Positions 30,733 through 38,841 of a stretch of 64,000 bases of DNA are shown in pieces. The notes under the pieces are model-generated. The model worked only from the letters and a program-made list of their open reading frames with translations, searched no databases and had not been told where the DNA came from. The DNA is from Mycobacteriales bacterium (GTDB taxonomy: Bacteria > Actinomycetota > Actinomycetes > BP-191). The position numbers and the translations under genes were made by a program. The stretch is from positions 1 through 64,000 of the forward strand of contig DASTMB010000026.1 of assembly GCA_035714365.1 (NCBI GenBank). Reading direction: 5' to 3'. Each line of letters begins with the position of its first letter. Position 1 is the first letter of the stretch.

Positions 30733-32637
30733 TCACGGCACGACCGAGAGGGGCAGCAGCGTGCGCCCGGTGGGACCGATCTGGATCTCGGTCCCCATGC
30801 CGGGGCAGACGCCGCAGTCGTAGCACGGGTTCCAGCGGCAGTCGGCGACCTCGGCGGCGGCGAGCGCCTCCTGCCAGTCGGCCCAGAGCCACTCCTTCTC
30901 CAGCCCCGAGTCCAGGTGGTCCCAGGGCAGGACCTCCGTCTCGCCGCGCTCGCGCGTCGTGTACCAGCCGACGTCGATCCCGGCCGCCTCGGCGGCGCGC
31001 ATCCACCGCTCGTAGGAGAAGTGCTCGCTCCACCCGTCGAACCGCCCGCCGTCCTCCCACACCTTCCGGATGACGGCGCCGACGCGCCGGTCGCCGCGGG
31101 AGAGCAGGCCCTCGACGATGCCGGGCTCGCCGTCGTGGTAGCGGAAGCCGATGGAACGCCCCAGCGTCCGGTCGGCGTTGATCGCGTCGCGCAGCAGGCG
31201 GAGGCGGCGGTCGACGGTGGCGGCGTCGGCCTGGCCGGCCCACTGGAACGGCGTGTGCGGCTTGGGCACGAACCCGCCGATGGAGACGGTGCAGCGGACG
31301 TCCTTCTGGCCGGTCTCGCGGCGGCCGGTGCGGATGACCTCGTGCGCGAGCTCGGCGATCTCGAGCACGTCCTCGTCGGTCTCGGTCGGCAGGCCGCACA
31401 TGAAGTAGAGCTTCACCTGCCGCCACCCCGCCTTGTACGCGGTGGTGACGGTGCGGATCAGGTCCTCCTTGGTGACGCCCTTGTTGATGACGGCGCGGAG
31501 GCGCTCGGAGCCGCCCTCGGGGGCGAACGTCAGGCCGGAGCGGCGGCCGTTGCGGGTGAGCTCGTTGGCGAGGTCGACGTTGAACGCGTCGACGCGCGTG
31601 GACGGCAGTGACAGCGACGTCTGCGTGCCCTCGTACCGGTCGGCGAGGCCCTTGGCGACGGGGCCGATCTCGGAGTGGTCGGCGCTGGACAGCGACAGCA
31701 GCCCGACCTCCTCGTAGCCGGTGGCGGCGAGGCCGCGCTCGACCATCTCGCCGATGCCGGTGATGGAGCGTTCGCGCACCGGGCGGGTGATCATCCCGGC
31801 CTGGCAGAACCGGCAGCCGCGGGTGCAGCCGCGGAAGATCTCGACGCTCATCCGCTCGTGCACGGTCTCGGCGAGCGGCACGAGCGGCTGCTTCGGGTAC
31901 GGCCACTCGTCGAGGTCCATGACGGTCCGCTTGCGGACGCGGAACGGCACGCCGGAGCGGTTCGGCACGACGCGCTTGATGCGGCCGTCGGGCAGGTGCT
32001 CGACGTCGTAGAACCGCGGCACGTACACGCCCTCGACCTCGGTCGCGAGCCGGTACAGCAGGTCCTCGCGGGTGCCGCCGGACTGCTTCCACGAGCGGAC
32101 GACGGCGGTCATCTCGAGGACGGCCTGCTCGCCGTCGCCGAGCACCGCGCAGTCGACGAAGTCGGCGATCGGCTCCGGGTTGAACGCCGCGTGCCCGCCC
32201 GCGACGACCACCGGGTGGGTGGGGTCGCGGTCGCGCGCGAGCAGCGGGATGCCGGCCAGGTCGAGGGCGTTGAGGAGGTTCGTGTACCCGAGCTCGGTCG
32301 AGAACGACACGCCCAGCAGGTCGAACGCGCGCACCGGCCGGTGCGCGTCCACCGTGAACTGCGGCACGCCGTGCTCGCGCAAGAGGCGTTCCAGGTCGGG
32401 CCAGACCGCGTAGGTGCGCTCGGCGAGGACACCCGGCTGCTCGTTGAGCACCTCGTAGAGGATCATGACGCCCTGGTTCGGCAGCCCCACCTCGTACGCG
32501 TCCGGGTACATCAGGCACCACCGCACGTCGGCGGCGTCCCAGTCCTTGACGGTGGCGTTCAGCTCGCCGCCGACGTACTGGACCGGCTTCTGCACGCGCG
32601 GCAGCAGCGGCTCCAGCCGCGGGAAGATCGATTCCAT
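30733..32637 (-). CDS. TIGR03960 family B12-binding radical SAM protein
   Basis: 634 residues. The N-terminal domain resembles a cobalamin-binding module. The radical SAM cluster motif is 'IFRGCTRGCRFCQAGMI' (CxxxCxxC), followed by 'GLLSLSSADHSEIG' and 'LTFAPEGGSERLRAVINKG'. A C-terminal cysteine cluster 'CRWNPCYDCGVCPGMGTEI' may bind a second Fe-S centre. The substrate is unknown; constant association with TIGR03936 and RNase E/G hints at RNA or translation. ATG 32637 (MESIFPRLEPLLPRVQKPVQY) matches the family start and overlaps, on the opposite strand, the start codon of the divergent lipoprotein gene. Confidence 0.9.
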   Translation of the reverse strand: MESIFPRLEPLLPRVQKPVQYVGGELNATVKDWDAADVRWCLMYPDAYEVGLPNQGVMILYEVLNEQPGVLAERTYAVWPDLERLLREHGVPQFTVDAHRPVRAFDLLGVSFSTELGYTNLLNALDLAGIPLLARDRDPTHPVVVAGGHAAFNPEPIADFVDCAVLGDGEQAVLEMTAVVRSWKQSGGTREDLLYRLATEVEGVYVPRFYDVEHLPDGRIKRVVPNRSGVPFRVRKRTVMDLDEWPYPKQPLVPLAETVHERMSVEIFRGCTRGCRFCQAGMITRPVRERSITGIGEMVERGLAATGYEEVGLLSLSSADHSEIGPVAKGLADRYEGTQTSLSLPSTRVDAFNVDLANELTRNGRRSGLTFAPEGGSERLRAVINKGVTKEDLIRTVTTAYKAGWRQVKLYFMCGLPTETDEDVLEIAELAHEVIRTGRRETGQKDVRCTVSIGGFVPKPHTPFQWAGQADAATVDRRLRLLRDAINADRTLGRSIGFRYHDGEPGIVEGLLSRGDRRVGAVIRKVWEDGGRFDGWSEHFSYERWMRAAEAAGIDVGWYTTRERGETEVLPWDHLDSGLEKEWLWADWQEALAAAEVADCRWNPCYDCGVCPGMGTEIQIGPTGRTLLPLSVVP

Positions 32638-33316
32638 GACGTGGTCCAGCGTACGTGACCGGCGCGGCGGCGGGCACCGGGTCGTTGCGGCAGGGGTGGC
32701 GCTGCTGCTCGCCGGCTGCTCCACCGGGTACCGCCGCGCCGCGCCCGCGACGGCGACGGCGACCGCCACGGCCGGGCCGGCGGTCACCGCGTCGCCGGCC
32801 GGGCCGGCGTCCGTGGACGTCGACGGCGACGGCCGCCCGGACCCCGTGACGATCGTCGAGGACGGCCCGCGCACGTCGCCCGCCTGGCGGTGGGGGGTGC
32901 GCGTGGCGCTGTCGTCGCGCGGGCCGCGCACCCTCTGGTCCGGCTGCTGCGCGATGGACGGCCAGGAGCTCGGCCCCGCCGGCGACGTCGACGGCGACGG
33001 CCGCGCCGAGGTGTCCGGCTCGGACGGCGCGACGGCGACCACGCGCGGGTGGTTCCTCGCCACGCTCTCCGGCGACCGCCTGGTCCGCGTCACCGGGCCG
33101 GCGCTCGCGACGGGGCTCGGCGAGGGCGGCCGCGAGGTGTCGTGGAGCTGCGTCCCCGGCGGGATCGTCATGACCAGCGTGGTGTTCCAGGGGACCGCCG
33201 GGACCCGGACGTACTACCGGCTGGACGGCACCCGGCTGGTGCGCGTCCGCACCGTCCACGACCGCTGGGGCGGCGGCGTCGCGCGGCCGCCGGAGTACGG
33301 CGCGTTCTCCTGCTGA
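32636..33316 (+). CDS. Putative lipoprotein with DxDxDG repeats (FG-GAP/VCBS-like)
   Basis: 226 residues. Signal with lipobox LLLAGC (Cys near residue 29), then a Thr/Ala/Pro linker and a domain with two Ca-binding-like loops (DVDGDGRPDPV and DVDGDGRAEV). C-terminal part contains four further cysteines. Homologous in layout to the gene at 35118. ATG 32636 has GGAAG about 9-13 bases upstream and overlaps the ATG of the divergent radical SAM gene by 2 bases, so little room remains for a 5' leader on either side. The sigma factor gene starts 42 bases downstream. Function unknown. Confidence 0.75.
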   Translation: MTWSSVRDRRGGGHRVVAAGVALLLAGCSTGYRRAAPATATATATAGPAVTASPAGPASVDVDGDGRPDPVTIVEDGPRTSPAWRWGVRVALSSRGPRTLWSGCCAMDGQELGPAGDVDGDGRAEVSGSDGATATTRGWFLATLSGDRLVRVTGPALATGLGEGGREVSWSCVPGGIVMTSVVFQGTAGTRTYYRLDGTRLVRVRTVHDRWGGGVARPPEYGAFSC

Positions 33317-33323
33317 CCCGCGC

Positions 33324-33350
33324 ACAACCTTTCCGGGCGTTCGGGCGTCC
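33324..33350 (+). promoter_or_regulatory. Candidate ECF-type promoter before the sigma gene
   Basis: ACAACC (33324-33329), 16 bases, CGTCC (33346-33350), ending 8 bases before the ATG of the sigma factor gene. ECF promoters usually have an AAC-containing -35 and a CGT-type -10, so this could be self-activation by the sigma factor. This is inference from spacing and pattern only. Confidence 0.4.
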
Positions 33351-33358
33351 AACGCGAC

Positions 33359-33883
33359 ATGACTGTGGCCGGCACGGCGATCGGAGGGGGCGTGGACGTC
33401 GGTGCTGACGAGGCGCTGACCGCGTTGTACGCGGCCCACTACCGCTCGCTGGTCCGCCTCGCCGCCCTGCTGCTCGACGACCTGCCCGCGTGCGAGGACG
33501 TCGTCCAGGAGGCGTACGTCCGCGTGTACCGCGCGTGGGGCCGCATCGGCGACCAGAACAAGGCGCTCGCCTACCTGCGGCAGACCGTCGTCAACCTCAG
33601 CCGGTCGGCGTTGCGCCGCCGCCTCGTCGCGCGCCGGCTCGCGCCGCGTCCGGACGGCGCCGGCGCCGACCCGGCGTACGCCGCCGTCGAGCGCGACGCG
33701 CTCGTCCGCGCGTTGCGCACGCTCCCCCGCCGCCAGCGCGAGGCGCTGGCGCTCCGCTACCTCGCCGACCTGACGGAGGCGCAGACCGCCGCCGCCATGG
33801 GCTGCGGCGTCGGCTCGGTGAAGGCGTACGCCTCCCGCGGCCTCGCCACGCTCGGCACGTTGCTGAAGGAGACCGACCGATGA
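33359..33883 (+). CDS. SigE-family extracytoplasmic-function sigma factor
   Basis: 174 residues. Sigma region 2 at 'ALYAAHYRSLVRLAALLLDDLPACEDVVQEAYVRVYRAWGRI' and region 4 at 'ALRTLPRRQREALALRYLADLTEAQTAAAMGCGVGSVKAYASRGLATL' (helix-turn-helix). This is the SigE-family (TIGR02983-like) form. The ATG at 33359 gives a short Gly/Val extension; a GTG at 33392 could be the true start. The gene overlaps the downstream membrane protein by ATGA, the usual place for an anti-sigma factor. Confidence 0.92.
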   Translation: MTVAGTAIGGGVDVGADEALTALYAAHYRSLVRLAALLLDDLPACEDVVQEAYVRVYRAWGRIGDQNKALAYLRQTVVNLSRSALRRRLVARRLAPRPDGAGADPAYAAVERDALVRALRTLPRRQREALALRYLADLTEAQTAAAMGCGVGSVKAYASRGLATLGTLLKETDR

Positions 33884-35121
33884 CGCCCGAGGAGCTCCGC
33901 GCGGGACTCGACCGCGCCGTCGAGCCGCTCCGGCCCGGCCCGGAGTCGTACGAACGCCTGCGCGCCGGCGTCGAACGCCGCCGCGGCGCCGTGCGCCGGT
34001 ACGTGCTCGCGGCCGTCACCACGGCCGCCGTCGTGGCCGTCGGCACCGCGGTCGCGCTGCCGCGCGCCGACGCGCCTGCGCCACCCCTGCGGCCGGCCCC
34101 GGTCGCGCCGAAGCCGCTACCGCCGGACGCCGAACGCCCGATGACGTTCGAGGAGGTCGTGGCGACGCGGACCGCGGCCTGCGCCGGCCGCGGGGGCATT
34201 GCGGGAGTGGTCGCGCAGGGACCCCCCGACAAGTGGCTGCTGGACGCGCAGGGCCCGCTGACCCTCTCGCTGTTCGTGCGGGAGGGCACCACGATCCCGG
34301 CCGGGCTGCACGTGGTCGTGACCGCCCCCGACGGCGGGACGGCGACCGCGATGGCGAAGGGCCTCGGCGCGCCGTCGCTGCGGTACCCGGCCGACTTCGC
34401 GGGCGCCGACACCAGCCGGTCCGGCGTGTACCGGGCCGACTGGCAGGCCGCCGACGGCACCCCGGTCACCTGCGGCGCGTTCTTCCTCGCCCACCCCCGC
34501 GGGCACGTGCTCCCGCGCGCCGGGCGGGCCGCGGACGGCGACGTGGACGGCGACGGGGTCGCCGACGTGGTCGAGGTGCTCGTGGACCCGCCGCCGCGGC
34601 CCGGCGAGCCGCCGACGCTGCGGCCGGGGATCACCTGGACCCTGCGCGCCGACCTCAGCGCGCTCGGGGTCCGCAGCGTGGAGCTGTTCGGCGGGTCCGG
34701 GTACGGCGCCGGCTCCGGCGTCGCCGACCAGACCCGCGGCCGCGCCCTCGGCGTCGTCGACATGGACGACGACGGGTACGGCGACATCCCGCTCGACCGC
34801 CGCCCCACCCCCGGGGACGGCGTCCACGCCTACGCCCACCTGGTCGCGGGGATGCTGGCGGTGGAGGACTTCCACGTGGCGAGCACCGGCGACCGGTACG
34901 GCTGGGGGTGCGCCGACACCACGCCGGCCCACCCGGGACGCGAGGTGTACGGCACCGCCCTGACGACCCGCGACGGCACCGTCACCAGCCGCCGCCAGAC
35001 CGTCCTGCTCCGCGACGGCGTCCTCGGCTACGCCCTCACCGAGACGCGCACCTGGCCCGAGGGCGACCCCGCACCCGCGGGGTGGGACGCCGGCTTCGAC
35101 TGCGGAGGAGTGCACGGATGA
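33880..35121 (+). CDS. Single-pass membrane protein, candidate anti-sigma factor
   Basis: 413 residues. A short cytoplasmic N-terminus (about 40 residues, 'TPEELRAGLDRAVEPLRPGPESYERLRAGVERRRGAVRR') precedes one membrane helix (YVLAAVTTAAVVAVGTAVAL) and a long exported part with two Ca-binding-like loops (DVDGDGVADVVEVL, DMDDDGYGD). No HxxxCxxC zinc anti-sigma motif is present, so the anti-sigma role is inferred from position (ATGA overlap with the sigma gene) and topology only. The exported domain is related in style to both flanking lipoproteins. The stop overlaps the next gene by ATGA. Confidence 0.8.
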   Translation: MTPEELRAGLDRAVEPLRPGPESYERLRAGVERRRGAVRRYVLAAVTTAAVVAVGTAVALPRADAPAPPLRPAPVAPKPLPPDAERPMTFEEVVATRTAACAGRGGIAGVVAQGPPDKWLLDAQGPLTLSLFVREGTTIPAGLHVVVTAPDGGTATAMAKGLGAPSLRYPADFAGADTSRSGVYRADWQAADGTPVTCGAFFLAHPRGHVLPRAGRAADGDVDGDGVADVVEVLVDPPPRPGEPPTLRPGITWTLRADLSALGVRSVELFGGSGYGAGSGVADQTRGRALGVVDMDDDGYGDIPLDRRPTPGDGVHAYAHLVAGMLAVEDFHVASTGDRYGWGCADTTPAHPGREVYGTALTTRDGTVTSRRQTVLLRDGVLGYALTETRTWPEGDPAPAGWDAGFDCGGVHG

Positions 35122-35921
35122 ACCGCCACCTGCTGGCCTGCGCCGCCGTGGCGGCGCTCGCCGCCTGCCGTCCCGCGGGTCCGACGGCCGCCCCGTCGAG
35201 CGCGCCCGCGCCCGCCACCACCACGGCCACGGTCACCCCCACGGCCACCGCCACCACGCCGCCGGTGACGCTCGCGCCGGCCAGCCCGCCACCGCCGCGG
35301 GCCGACACGCCGATCGGCTTCGGCCGCACCGTCACCGGCGACGTCGACGGCGACGGCCGCGCCGACTCGGTGCGGCTCGTGCACAACCAGTACCCGCAGG
35401 CGGACCGGCGTTGGCGCTGGGGCGTCGTCGCCGTCCTCGCCCGCGGCGGCCCGCGCTACCTGTGGCGGCAGCCGGGCGCCGACAGCAACGAGGCACAGTG
35501 GCTCACCGGCGTCACCGACATGAACGGCGACGGCCGCGCCGAGATCGTCGCCAGCCCGGGCGGCTGGGCCCAGGGCTCGTTCCACGACGTGGTCGTGCTC
35601 ACCGGCGGCCGGCTGGTCCGGGCCACCGCCTCCGGCCGGCTGGTGGTGTTCGAGACGAACAAGCCGGACGCGGCGCCCGTCGGCTTCGGCTGCGCCGAGT
35701 CCGTCGCCTCCTCGCCCGGCCGCGAGGTCTACCGCGTCCAGGCGGTCAGCGAGGACGGCGGGCGGACCTACCGGCTGACCCGCGAGGACTACCGGCTCAC
35801 CGGCGCGACCCTGGCCCTGGTGCGCACCCGCACGGCGCGCTGGACCGCCGGCACGGCGAAGCCCGCCGGCTTCCCCGCCGGCCTGCACTGCGGGTCGTTG
35901 CGGGTCTCCGTCATGGGGTGA
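35118..35921 (+). CDS. Putative lipoprotein with DxDxDG repeats, third of cluster
   Basis: 267 residues. Lipobox LAAC (Cys near 20), a Thr/Ala/Pro linker of about 45 residues, then 'GDVDGDGRADSVRLVHNQY' and 'DMNGDGRAEIVASPGGW', Asp-rich loops as in FG-GAP/VCBS proteins, and 'GCAESVASSPGREVYRVQAV'. That last stretch matches 'GCADTTPAHPGREVYGTAL' of the preceding protein, so the two are paralogous. ATGA overlap with the upstream gene. Its 3' end overlaps the convergent PH-domain gene by 11 bases. Confidence 0.82.
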   Translation: MNRHLLACAAVAALAACRPAGPTAAPSSAPAPATTTATVTPTATATTPPVTLAPASPPPPRADTPIGFGRTVTGDVDGDGRADSVRLVHNQYPQADRRWRWGVVAVLARGGPRYLWRQPGADSNEAQWLTGVTDMNGDGRAEIVASPGGWAQGSFHDVVVLTGGRLVRATASGRLVVFETNKPDAAPVGFGCAESVASSPGREVYRVQAVSEDGGRTYRLTREDYRLTGATLALVRTRTARWTAGTAKPAGFPAGLHCGSLRVSVMG

Positions 35922-36327
35922 GCGCGACCTCGTGGCCGTGCCCGGCGGCGTAGGCGGCGACGGCCTGCGCCGTGCGCGGCGCGACGTGCGCGGCCGGCGC
36001 CGGGGGCCGCCACGACACCCACGGCAGCGCGACCCGCTCGCCCGCGCGCGTCACCGCGAGCGTGCCCTGCCGCCCGCCGTCGGTGAACGCCACGACCTCC
36101 GGCCAGGGCAGCCGCCGCGTCCCGCGCACCCGGCGGACCGTGACGCCGCCGGGGTCGAGCTCGGTCCGCGTCCGCCACACCATCGCCGCGAACGCCGCCG
36201 CCGCCACGGCCGGCAGCACCGCCAGCCGGGTGTGCGGCCCCAGCGCGAACGCCGCCGCCAGCCAGCCGGACAGCATGGCGTACTGCCACCACGGCGCGCG
36301 CAGCACGACGGGCTCGCCGGCGTTCAC
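35911..36327 (-). CDS. PH-domain (bPH6-like) membrane protein, paralogue 1
   Basis: 138 residues. Two N-terminal hydrophobic helices ('WWQYAMLSGWLAAAFALG', 'LAVLPAVAAAAFAAMVW') are followed by a compact beta domain, 'TELDPGGVTVRRVRGTRRLPWPEVVAFTD...VTRAGERVALPWVSWRPP', typical of actinobacterial PH-domain proteins. A GTGA overlap joins it to the upstream paralogue. Function unknown; these proteins are usually envelope-associated. Confidence 0.8.
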   Translation of the reverse strand: MNAGEPVVLRAPWWQYAMLSGWLAAAFALGPHTRLAVLPAVAAAAFAAMVWRTRTELDPGGVTVRRVRGTRRLPWPEVVAFTDGGRQGTLAVTRAGERVALPWVSWRPPAPAAHVAPRTAQAVAAYAAGHGHEVALTP

Positions 36328-36734
36328 AGCCCCTCCGCCGCGGGCTCGTAGCCGTGGTCCCGTGCGTACGCGAGGACCCGCGCGGCCGCGCGCGGCGACT
36401 CCGTTCCCCCGCGGGCCGGCGGCCGCCACTCCACCCACGGCAACGTCACCCGCTCGCCGTCGCGCGTCACCGCGACCACGGCGGCGCGCCGCCGGGCCAG
36501 CGCCGCCACGTCGGCCCACGCCACGCGCCGTTCACCCCAGAACCGGCGCACCGTCACGCCCTCCCGGTCGAGCACCGTGCGCATCCGCCACAACGACCAC
36601 AGGAAGGGCACCAGCAGGGCCAGCACCACCCACCGCCACGGGTCCTCAGGGGCGCGCACCAGCATCGACGCCGCCAGCGCGCCGTAGCCGATGCCGAGCC
36701 AGCGGTTCGGCCCGATCGAGACCCGGTCAGGCAC
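36324..36734 (-). CDS. PH-domain (bPH6-like) membrane protein, paralogue 2
   Basis: 136 residues with the same plan as its neighbour: two N-terminal helices (about 11-26 and 33-48), then 'MRTVLDREGVTVRRFWGERRVAWADVAALARR...VTRDGERVTLPWVEWRPP' and a C-terminal helix 'VLAYARDHGYEP'. Clearly a tandem duplicate of the 35911 gene. Overlaps the upstream membrane protein by 8 bases, so the three are co-transcribed. Confidence 0.82.
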   Translation of the reverse strand: MPDRVSIGPNRWLGIGYGALAASMLVRAPEDPWRWVVLALLVPFLWSLWRMRTVLDREGVTVRRFWGERRVAWADVAALARRRAAVVAVTRDGERVTLPWVEWRPPARGGTESPRAAARVLAYARDHGYEPAAEGL

Positions 36735-37342: not shown

Positions 37343-38311
37343 CTACGGCGACGGAACGATGGTCGCGGTCTGCAGCGTCCAGCCGGTCGCGATCTGCTGG
37401 ATGTAGGTCAGCCGCGTGCCGGCGAGCATGCCCGGGTAGATGTCGCCGGGGATCCCGCCGTCGGAGATCACGATGTGCGTGAAGTTGCCGGCGCCCTCGC
37501 CGCCGTACACCTCGACGCCGGAGCCGGAGTCGCCCTCGAAGCCGACGCCGTACCAGGCGAACGCCCGGCCGTTGCGCGCCCGCCAGATCGGCGCGACGCC
37601 CGCGCGCGGCGTGCCGCCTGCGCCGGTGCCCATGCCGTGGCCGAAGTGCTTCACCGCGGTGATCGAGTTGGCCGCGTACGTGCCCGTCGGGCCGCCCCAG
37701 ACCGGCATGCTCGGGTTCACCCAGGAGCTGTACTCGGGGTAGAGCTGGATCATCGCGAAGTCGTCGCCGATGCCGTTGTTGTGGCTCAGCACGAACTTGC
37801 CGATGTGGTAGAAGCCCGGCAGCCGGCCCGAGCCGACCGGCGGCACGACGTACGCCGTCACGTCCGGGAACCCGCCCAGCGCGTCGCTCGCCGCGCAGTG
37901 GCCGGCCGTGCCCAGGCCGTACGCGCCGTTCTTGGTGAAGACGAAGTTCGCGGTGCACCAGGCGAAGCCGACGTAGCCGTCCGAGCCGTCCTGGATCGTC
38001 ACCAGCCAGGTGCCGGGGCGGATGCCGGTCGACACGAGACCGACGGCGCGCGGCCCACCGGGGAGCTGCGCCCCGTCGGGCAGGCGGACGCCCGTGCTGC
38101 CCGCGGCCATCACCTTCTTGGCGAACGCCGCGTCGTACCACGACGGGCCGGCCGTCGACATCGGCACCGCCCAGCCGCCCTCGAACCGTTCGGCGCCGGG
38201 GACCGGCGGCTTGGCGAGCGCGGCCGTCGTCGCGGACGACGCGCCCGCGGTGACCGAGAGCGCGGCCGCCGCGAGGGCGACGACTCCGCGCAGGAGCAGG
38301 GTGGGACGCAT
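37343..38311 (-). CDS. Secreted trypsin-like serine protease
   Basis: 322 residues. Signal peptide with a long hydrophobic core (LLLRGVVALAAAALSVTAGASSA). Catalytic triad visible: His138 in TAGHC, Asp183/184 in GDDFAMIQL, Ser262 in GDSGSG. Paired cysteines around 119 and 139 could bridge next to the histidine. The 100-residue segment before the protease domain may be a propeptide. Similar to S1-family exported proteases of actinobacteria. The ATG is well placed at the signal peptide. Confidence 0.88.
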   Translation of the reverse strand: MRPTLLLRGVVALAAAALSVTAGASSATTAALAKPPVPGAERFEGGWAVPMSTAGPSWYDAAFAKKVMAAGSTGVRLPDGAQLPGGPRAVGLVSTGIRPGTWLVTIQDGSDGYVGFAWCTANFVFTKNGAYGLGTAGHCAASDALGGFPDVTAYVVPPVGSGRLPGFYHIGKFVLSHNNGIGDDFAMIQLYPEYSSWVNPSMPVWGGPTGTYAANSITAVKHFGHGMGTGAGGTPRAGVAPIWRARNGRAFAWYGVGFEGDSGSGVEVYGGEGAGNFTHIVISDGGIPGDIYPGMLAGTRLTYIQQIATGWTLQTATIVPSP

Positions 38312-38370: not shown

Positions 38371-38841
38371 CTATGTCCGGTTCTGGCGCAATGCCCCGGG
38401 GTCGTCCGTGCCCCAGCGCCCGTCACTGCGCAACGGCACCGGGTGGCCGTGCGCGGCCGCCCACGCGGCGACGCGTTCGACCGAGTCCCTGCGCACCCGT
38501 CCGTCCCGCCCGGGCGCGTACCAGCGCACCACCGGCAACGACACGCACCGCCCGTCCACGGTCACCACGACCGCCGACGGCCCGGCGCGCACCAGCGCCG
38601 CGACGTCGGTCCACTCGATCCGCTCCGAACGCCCGAACAGCCGCGCGACCGTCACCGCGTGCGGCGTCAGCACCGTGCGCGGCCACGTCGACAGCCACGC
38701 CAGCACCGCGAACACCACCGCCGTCCCGGCCGCCATCGCGCTGCGGTACGCCACCGCCAGCACGGCCGTCAGCACCGCGGAGGCGACGCTCCGCCACAGC
38801 GGCCGGTCCGCGAGCACCACCACGTCCCGGGGCCGCCCCAC
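38371..38841 (-). CDS. PH-domain (bPH6-like) membrane protein, paralogue 3
   Basis: 156 residues, same plan as the two genes at 35.9-36.7 kb: N-terminal helices ('SVASAVLTAVLAVAYRS', 'AAGTAVVFAVLAWLS'), then 'PRTVLTPHAVTVARLFGRSERIEWTDVAALVRAG...VTVDGRCVSLPVVRWYAPG'. It is separated from them by the protease and the DUF2238-like gene. Its longer C-terminus is Arg/Asp-rich. Function unknown. Confidence 0.8.
   Translation of the reverse strand: MGRPRDVVVLADRPLWRSVASAVLTAVLAVAYRSAMAAGTAVVFAVLAWLSTWPRTVLTPHAVTVARLFGRSERIEWTDVAALVRAGPSAVVVTVDGRCVSLPVVRWYAPGRDGRVRRDSVERVAAWAAAHGHPVPLRSDGRWGTDDPGALRQNRT

Follow-up and report, generated by a model that had tools for sequence, protein, structure and literature searches.

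In Cupriavidus metallidurans, CnrH, CnrY and CnrX are, respectively, an ECF sigma factor, a class II anti-sigma factor and an exported metal sensor, and class II anti-sigma domains are short and divergent. CnrY embraces its sigma factor with two helices (PMC4598750), and in Bacillus subtilis the anti-sigma factor of SigV, RsiV, which has a single transmembrane helix at residues 37-59, is itself the lysozyme receptor (PMC4183432). The SigE of Streptomyces coelicolor has no anti-sigma factor and is under two-component control; promoters in the sigE-cseABC system have the form AAC...CGTC, the sigE promoter is not a target of SigE itself, and the lipoprotein CseA damps this envelope-stress sigma system (PMC6767563), which sets a precedent for the tuning of such a system by a lipoprotein. 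The locus described here lies in the window, the whole stretch of 64,000 nucleotides that was analysed, and comprises four genes that we call LpA, sigma, MemP and LpB (Table 1). From its sequence and structural models we consider it likely that MemP is the membrane anti-sigma factor of a positively autoregulated sigma operon, with an integrin-like ectodomain as the sensor.

Table 1. Features of the sigma/MemP locus, in window coordinates
Feature	Coordinates	Strand	Description
LpA	32636-33316	+	predicted lipoprotein, 226 aa, lipobox LAGC28, FG-GAP-like domain; 5' of the conserved promoter
sigma-E-type promoter ACAAC-N17-CGTC	33324-33349	+	9 nt before the sigma ATG; conserved in 49/49 loci
sigma	33359-33883	+	SigE-family ECF sigma factor, 174 aa; TIGR02983; start codon consistent with promoter position
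MemP	33880-35121	+	413-aa membrane partner (single-pass); putative anti-sigma factor; ATGA overlap, conserved pair
MemP N-terminal two-helix module, aa 1-41	33880-34002	+	proposed sigma-binding segment; kept across partners
MemP transmembrane segment, aa 42-60	34003-34059	+	hydropathy; sole hydrophobic segment (about aa 42-60)
MemP extra exported segment, about aa 85-212	34132-34515	+	gap in homologues; low pLDDT
MemP FG-GAP/integrin-like ectodomain, aa 219-408	34534-35103	+	homology to LpB; weak integrin alpha structural matches
LpB	35118-35921	+	predicted lipoprotein, 267 aa, lipobox LAAC17, FG-GAP; last gene of the operon; ATGA overlap

The gene content first proposed for this locus, a SigE-family sigma factor among two lipoproteins and one single-pass membrane protein, was confirmed by the lipoboxes, by hydropathy and by the TIGR02983 model of the SigE family, against which sigma scores 167.9 bits for a cut-off of 141.55; Pfam finds both sigma-70 regions 2 and 4 in the protein. 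The last three genes are indeed joined by ATGA overlaps, at 33880 between sigma and MemP and at 35118 between MemP and LpB. As for the surroundings, the LpA start codon overlaps, at 32635-32638, the likely start of a divergent radical-SAM gene (MESIFPRLEPLLP), so that the two genes would have common 5' ends; in the congener G002 they lie ~440 bp apart. Downstream, on the minus strand, two small paralogous membrane proteins (35911-36327 and 36324-36734) both score above the cut-off for bPH_6, a bacterial PH domain, and a third paralogue probably lies at 38371-38841, also on the minus strand. Between them, at 37343-38311 on the same strand, is a protein that is predicted to be exported; it looks trypsin-like (GTAGHCA...GDSGSG), has no Pfam match and has a counterpart near the same sigma locus in G002 (L042:3197-4126); a role for it as a site-1 protease is pure speculation.

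The conserved ECF promoter lies in the 42-nt gap between LpA and sigma, which makes sigma-MemP-LpB the likely co-regulated unit and leaves LpA outside. The AAC-N17-CGTC form was found in every one of 49 loci (the window, G002 and 47 Frankia-type loci), and none of the seven AAC/CGTC positions varies among the 33 unique sequences, against an average conservation of 66% in the spacer and 59% in the upstream flank. Its elements and their spacing are also those of mapped sigma-E promoters of S. coelicolor (PMC6767563). The stricter pattern ACAAC-N17-CGTCMRA has a single match in the 3.8-Mb genome of the window strain (G000), at the sigma promoter, and none in the control; the ACAACCTT form has one match in G000 and one in G002, each at the sigma promoter, and ACAACCT-N15-CGTC has 20 matches in the genome. 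Few targets are predicted beyond the operon itself. The N17 form also precedes 20 of 87 loci, against 1.1 in shuffles, in a set that consists almost wholly of other sigma/partner pairs, with the window and G002 counted in. Sigma-MemP-LpB is thus probably an autoregulated operon, in which this very sigma factor would recognize CAAC-N17-CGTC. Since the -10 element ends only 9 nt before the ATG at 33359, the promoter position suggests a leaderless transcript for these three genes.

How far does this arrangement extend beyond the strain? A search of 148 relatives with MemP alone matched its first ~70 residues in a congener and in seven genomes that belong to a single family; within this family, a profile search of 394 genomes returned matches over the full or nearly full length of MemP in 33 genomes. 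A scan of named genomes, which overlap in part with the other genome set, recovered the same pair in Frankia, Pseudofrankia, Parafrankia and Protofrankia; judging from the names in this separate scan, the family with the pair would be the Frankiaceae. In every Frankia-family locus with a full-length match that we examined, sigma adjoins the MemP homologue. The two genes make up an operon by themselves in each Frankia-family locus that was inspected, as well as in one of the two congeners (G002). The other congener, G001, has no MemP match; its best sigma matches are 60% and 59% identical, the former with a different partner. In the Frankia-family loci read, the pair occupies a constant place between genes whose N-terminal sequences we read as those of a crotonyl-CoA reductase and an acetyl-CoA acetyltransferase. 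Two oddities were met among these loci: in a Protofrankia locus (L117:4125-5152) MemP is broken into two overlapping reading frames, by a frameshift or a sequencing error, and a contig labelled Candidatus Melainabacteria (CAJCIY010000193.1, our L134) carries an actinobacterial-type sigma/FG-GAP pair and probably belongs to a mis-binned actinobacterium.

The original prediction treated the four genes as one system that might co-occur across genomes. Co-occurrence beyond this strain was indeed found for sigma and MemP, in the Frankia family and G002, but it does not extend to the four-gene set, and we rejected the idea of a conserved four-gene block. LpA is kept beside the sigma gene elsewhere only in G002, and is thus a genus-level feature; LpB was found beside the pair in the window strain only, being absent from this position in G002 and Frankia; and the promoter excludes LpA. 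The conserved unit is therefore the sigma/MemP pair, which is probably a conserved but uncharacterized actinobacterial switch.

The Asp-rich FG-GAP-like loops announced for all three exported proteins are there, two of DxDxDG type in each (at residues 61 and 117 in LpA, 221 and 294 in MemP, 75 and 134 in LpB). Pfam FG-GAP matches LpA with 25.0 bits and LpB with 25.6 bits, over a gathering cut-off of 22.1; MemP has no Pfam or NCBIfam match. With composition correction off, LpB shows homology to residues 195-411 of MemP (E 7e-18) and to LpA (E 8e-29). Two cysteines and the first-loop aspartates do not vary among 34 aligned homologues; given this conservation, and the recurrence of sigma with MemP across a family, the domain shared by LpA, MemP and LpB is more than a chance resemblance, and the invariant cysteines make a disulfide in it likely. 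Calcium would be bound at the conserved loops, and it is plausible that these exported calcium-loop domains are the sensing part. Structure prediction, suggested at the outset, yielded a beta ectodomain at residues 219-408 of MemP (mean pLDDT of the whole model 67) and a model of LpB in which block pLDDT is mostly near or above 90 over residues 70-250. The best matches of the ectodomain in a fold search are parts of the integrin alpha propeller, only at Z 7.0-7.8 and all below 8, so that the integrin/FG-GAP-like fold type is weakly supported. XAC2610 (4qtq) and CarG (4o7j) also came near the top, with Z below 8, and we dropped for that reason the lysozyme-inhibitor analogy that they had suggested.

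LpA and LpB have the appearance of stand-alone, lineage-specific copies of the exported domain of MemP. It is quite conceivable, if somewhat doubtful, that they stand outside the signalling altogether, LpA as an independent neighbour and LpB as a duplicate subject to drift or simply an output of sigma. LpA lies beyond the promoter-defined unit, LpB turned up in one strain only, and copies of the exported domain occur elsewhere in Frankia with neither an adjoining sigma gene nor a convincing promoter site. These copies are free-standing proteins of Frankia-family genomes (L103-L110 and L113-L115), several with a lipobox; no gene for a SigE-type sigma factor adjoins them, and no convincing promoter site was found 5' of the free-standing Frankia lipoproteins. 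Against this, another species of the genus also keeps LpA next to the sigma gene, LpB is joined to MemP by an ATGA overlap, and both are homologues of the MemP ectodomain.

The anti-sigma reading of MemP gains support from the wider family of related sigma factors. In a search with the sigma sequence, 77 of the 80 nearest sigma genes, mostly from Streptomyces, overlap a partner by 4 nt, as do 106 of 111 pairs in all. The N-terminal ~40 residues of MemP are the part common to these partners, which bears out the original view of the membrane protein as the partner of sigma: the module occurs in 76 of 78 partners of the nearest 80 sigma genes, where the membrane helix follows it immediately (some of these same loci had contributed to the model of the module), and 76 of the 78 have exactly one transmembrane segment. 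Profile matches confined to the N-terminus also adjoin a sigma gene in other families. The exported domains of the partners vary by lineage, being Gmad2/Germane, FG-GAP or without a Pfam match. The sigma tree gathers the module-bearing pairs, with L252 as the one exception, in a clade of 58 (support 0.83), and the FG-GAP pairs cluster weakly (support 0.26). One sigma clade combined with variable exported domains is what would be expected if the N-terminus were the sigma-contacting part. Within the window genome the module is found at 2 of 30 sigma loci. Two further loci (L111:2067-4744 and L112:2783-4461) pair a sigma factor from another clade with a downstream single-pass protein whose FG-GAP domain is related but whose N-terminus differs; from these, the pairing of sigma factors with FG-GAP may have arisen more than once.

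In the model of MemP, a confident helix at residues 3-17 is followed by a second, 21-58, that runs through the membrane. A PDB sequence search with the 40-position profile of the module matched no solved anti-sigma factor, and no curated anti-sigma family matched above cut-off. Membership in NF052375 was considered and rejected: 9 of 31 members of set A4 matched, with a best E of 8e-4, far below the 100-bit cut-off, and matches to that family fall at other loci, not at MemP. The zinc motif HxxxCxxC is absent from MemP, LpA and LpB, as had been said of the membrane protein; its absence is nevertheless not odd, the whole partner family having the short two-helix module instead, and about 44% of class I anti-sigma domains also lack the motif (PMC7406223).

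An autoregulated sigma factor with an overlapping single-pass partner, in which the cytoplasmic segment is conserved and the outside domain changes, points to a sigma/membrane anti-sigma pair. Co-occurrence, overlap and a conserved N-terminus show a partnership and not its sign, and MemP could also be a membrane-anchored co-activator or docking protein required for the activity or localization of sigma, with its exported domain holding it at a site in the wall, the more so as sequence comparison found the module unlike any solved anti-sigma factor. We find this improbable, because an overlapping single-pass partner of an apparently autoregulated ECF sigma is usually an anti-sigma factor in characterized systems (PMC8103513) and because the helix layout of MemP is like that of CnrY. 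Less probable again is that sigma is controlled mainly by transcription or another regulator, as are some ECF sigmas without an anti-sigma factor, such as the Streptomyces SigE under its two-component system (PMC6767563), and that MemP is merely a co-transcribed surface protein, since only the cytoplasmic N-terminus and transmembrane helix of the partner are kept across families, neither of which a surface output needs, and the sigma promoter is itself of sigma-E type. The anti-sigma reading is supported by the recurrence of the pair, the 77 overlaps in 80, the module clade, the two-helix-then-membrane model and the invariant promoter; we counted against it the lack of a solved or curated anti-sigma match for the module, the ectodomain Z below 8, the extra segment of MemP, the L252 exception to the clade and the small number of predicted targets.

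Under the anti-sigma reading, the cytoplasmic two-helix segment of MemP, ~40 residues long, would at rest bind this stress-type sigma factor, hold it at the cell membrane and keep it off RNA polymerase, and the single transmembrane helix would join the segment to the integrin/FG-GAP-like domain, which has two Asp loops of calcium type and a probable disulfide. An external change (a ligand, calcium or a wall-related protein) would alter or cleave the ectodomain, upon which the N-terminal segment would release sigma, and the freed sigma would transcribe from CAAC-N17-CGTC promoters, its own included. LpB, from the same burst, and LpA, made separately, would bear this domain too, on a lipid anchor, and their most likely role would be to adjust the sensor, either as competitors for its ligand or by presenting that ligand to it. 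What we observe are the gene structure, the homology of the domains, the co-occurrence, the conserved promoter and the predicted helices and fold type; the binding, inhibition and release of sigma, the binding of calcium and the role of the lipoproteins are what we infer in this scheme. More tentatively, the module could be an undescribed anti-sigma domain across a large actinobacterial clade of the SigE family, coupled, in this genus and in Frankia, to an integrin-like sensor with calcium loops, itself copied into switch-modulating lipoproteins.

The claim that no described system has such a make-up holds in part: sigma/anti-sigma pairs are well known, but the module family and the FG-GAP sensor are apparently new. 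In the literature searched we found nothing that joins ECF or SigE-family sigma factors with FG-GAP, nor a description of the module as a family or of an FG-GAP ectodomain as a sensor, although the ECF reclassification may list the family. The pair makes a large group of actinobacterial sigma factors, the control of which is, as far as we found, uncharacterized, accessible to experiment: they combine one short module, one transmembrane helix and exchangeable outside domains, with a predicted promoter as read-out. The FG-GAP variant is kept across Frankia, a group of plant-symbiotic nitrogen fixers, and would show, if the reading is true, an integrin-like calcium-loop domain at work in bacterial signalling.

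Compared with known systems, the exported domain recalls the FG-GAP beta-propeller of integrin alpha, XAC2610 (4qtq) and CarG (4o7j) by its DxDxDG loops and by weak fold matches, at Z below 8 and E above 1e-3, and has fewer blades than a full propeller. The sigE-cseABC system has in common with the window locus the SigE-family name, the promoter form and a lipoprotein, but no anti-sigma factor. The SigE-family pairs of Streptomyces at the asd locus, and of other families at the rsmE-HIT locus, come from the same sigma clade, mostly with the 4-nt overlap, the same module and one transmembrane helix, and in some a related promoter upstream; unlike MemP, they carry a different exported domain, with no FG-GAP. 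RsiV resembles MemP in its short cytoplasmic part, single transmembrane helix and large exported domain as sensor, whereas its ectodomain is DUF4163/DUF3298, and its ligand and cleavage by signal peptidase are features of RsiV. Finally, although no sequence similarity between CnrY and MemP was found, and MemP is fused to a large FG-GAP-like ectodomain and has a putative mode of sigma binding, CnrY has, like MemP, a short cytoplasmic two-helix segment before one transmembrane helix, and the Cnr system places separate exported sensor proteins beside its anti-sigma factor, as LpA and LpB stand beside MemP.
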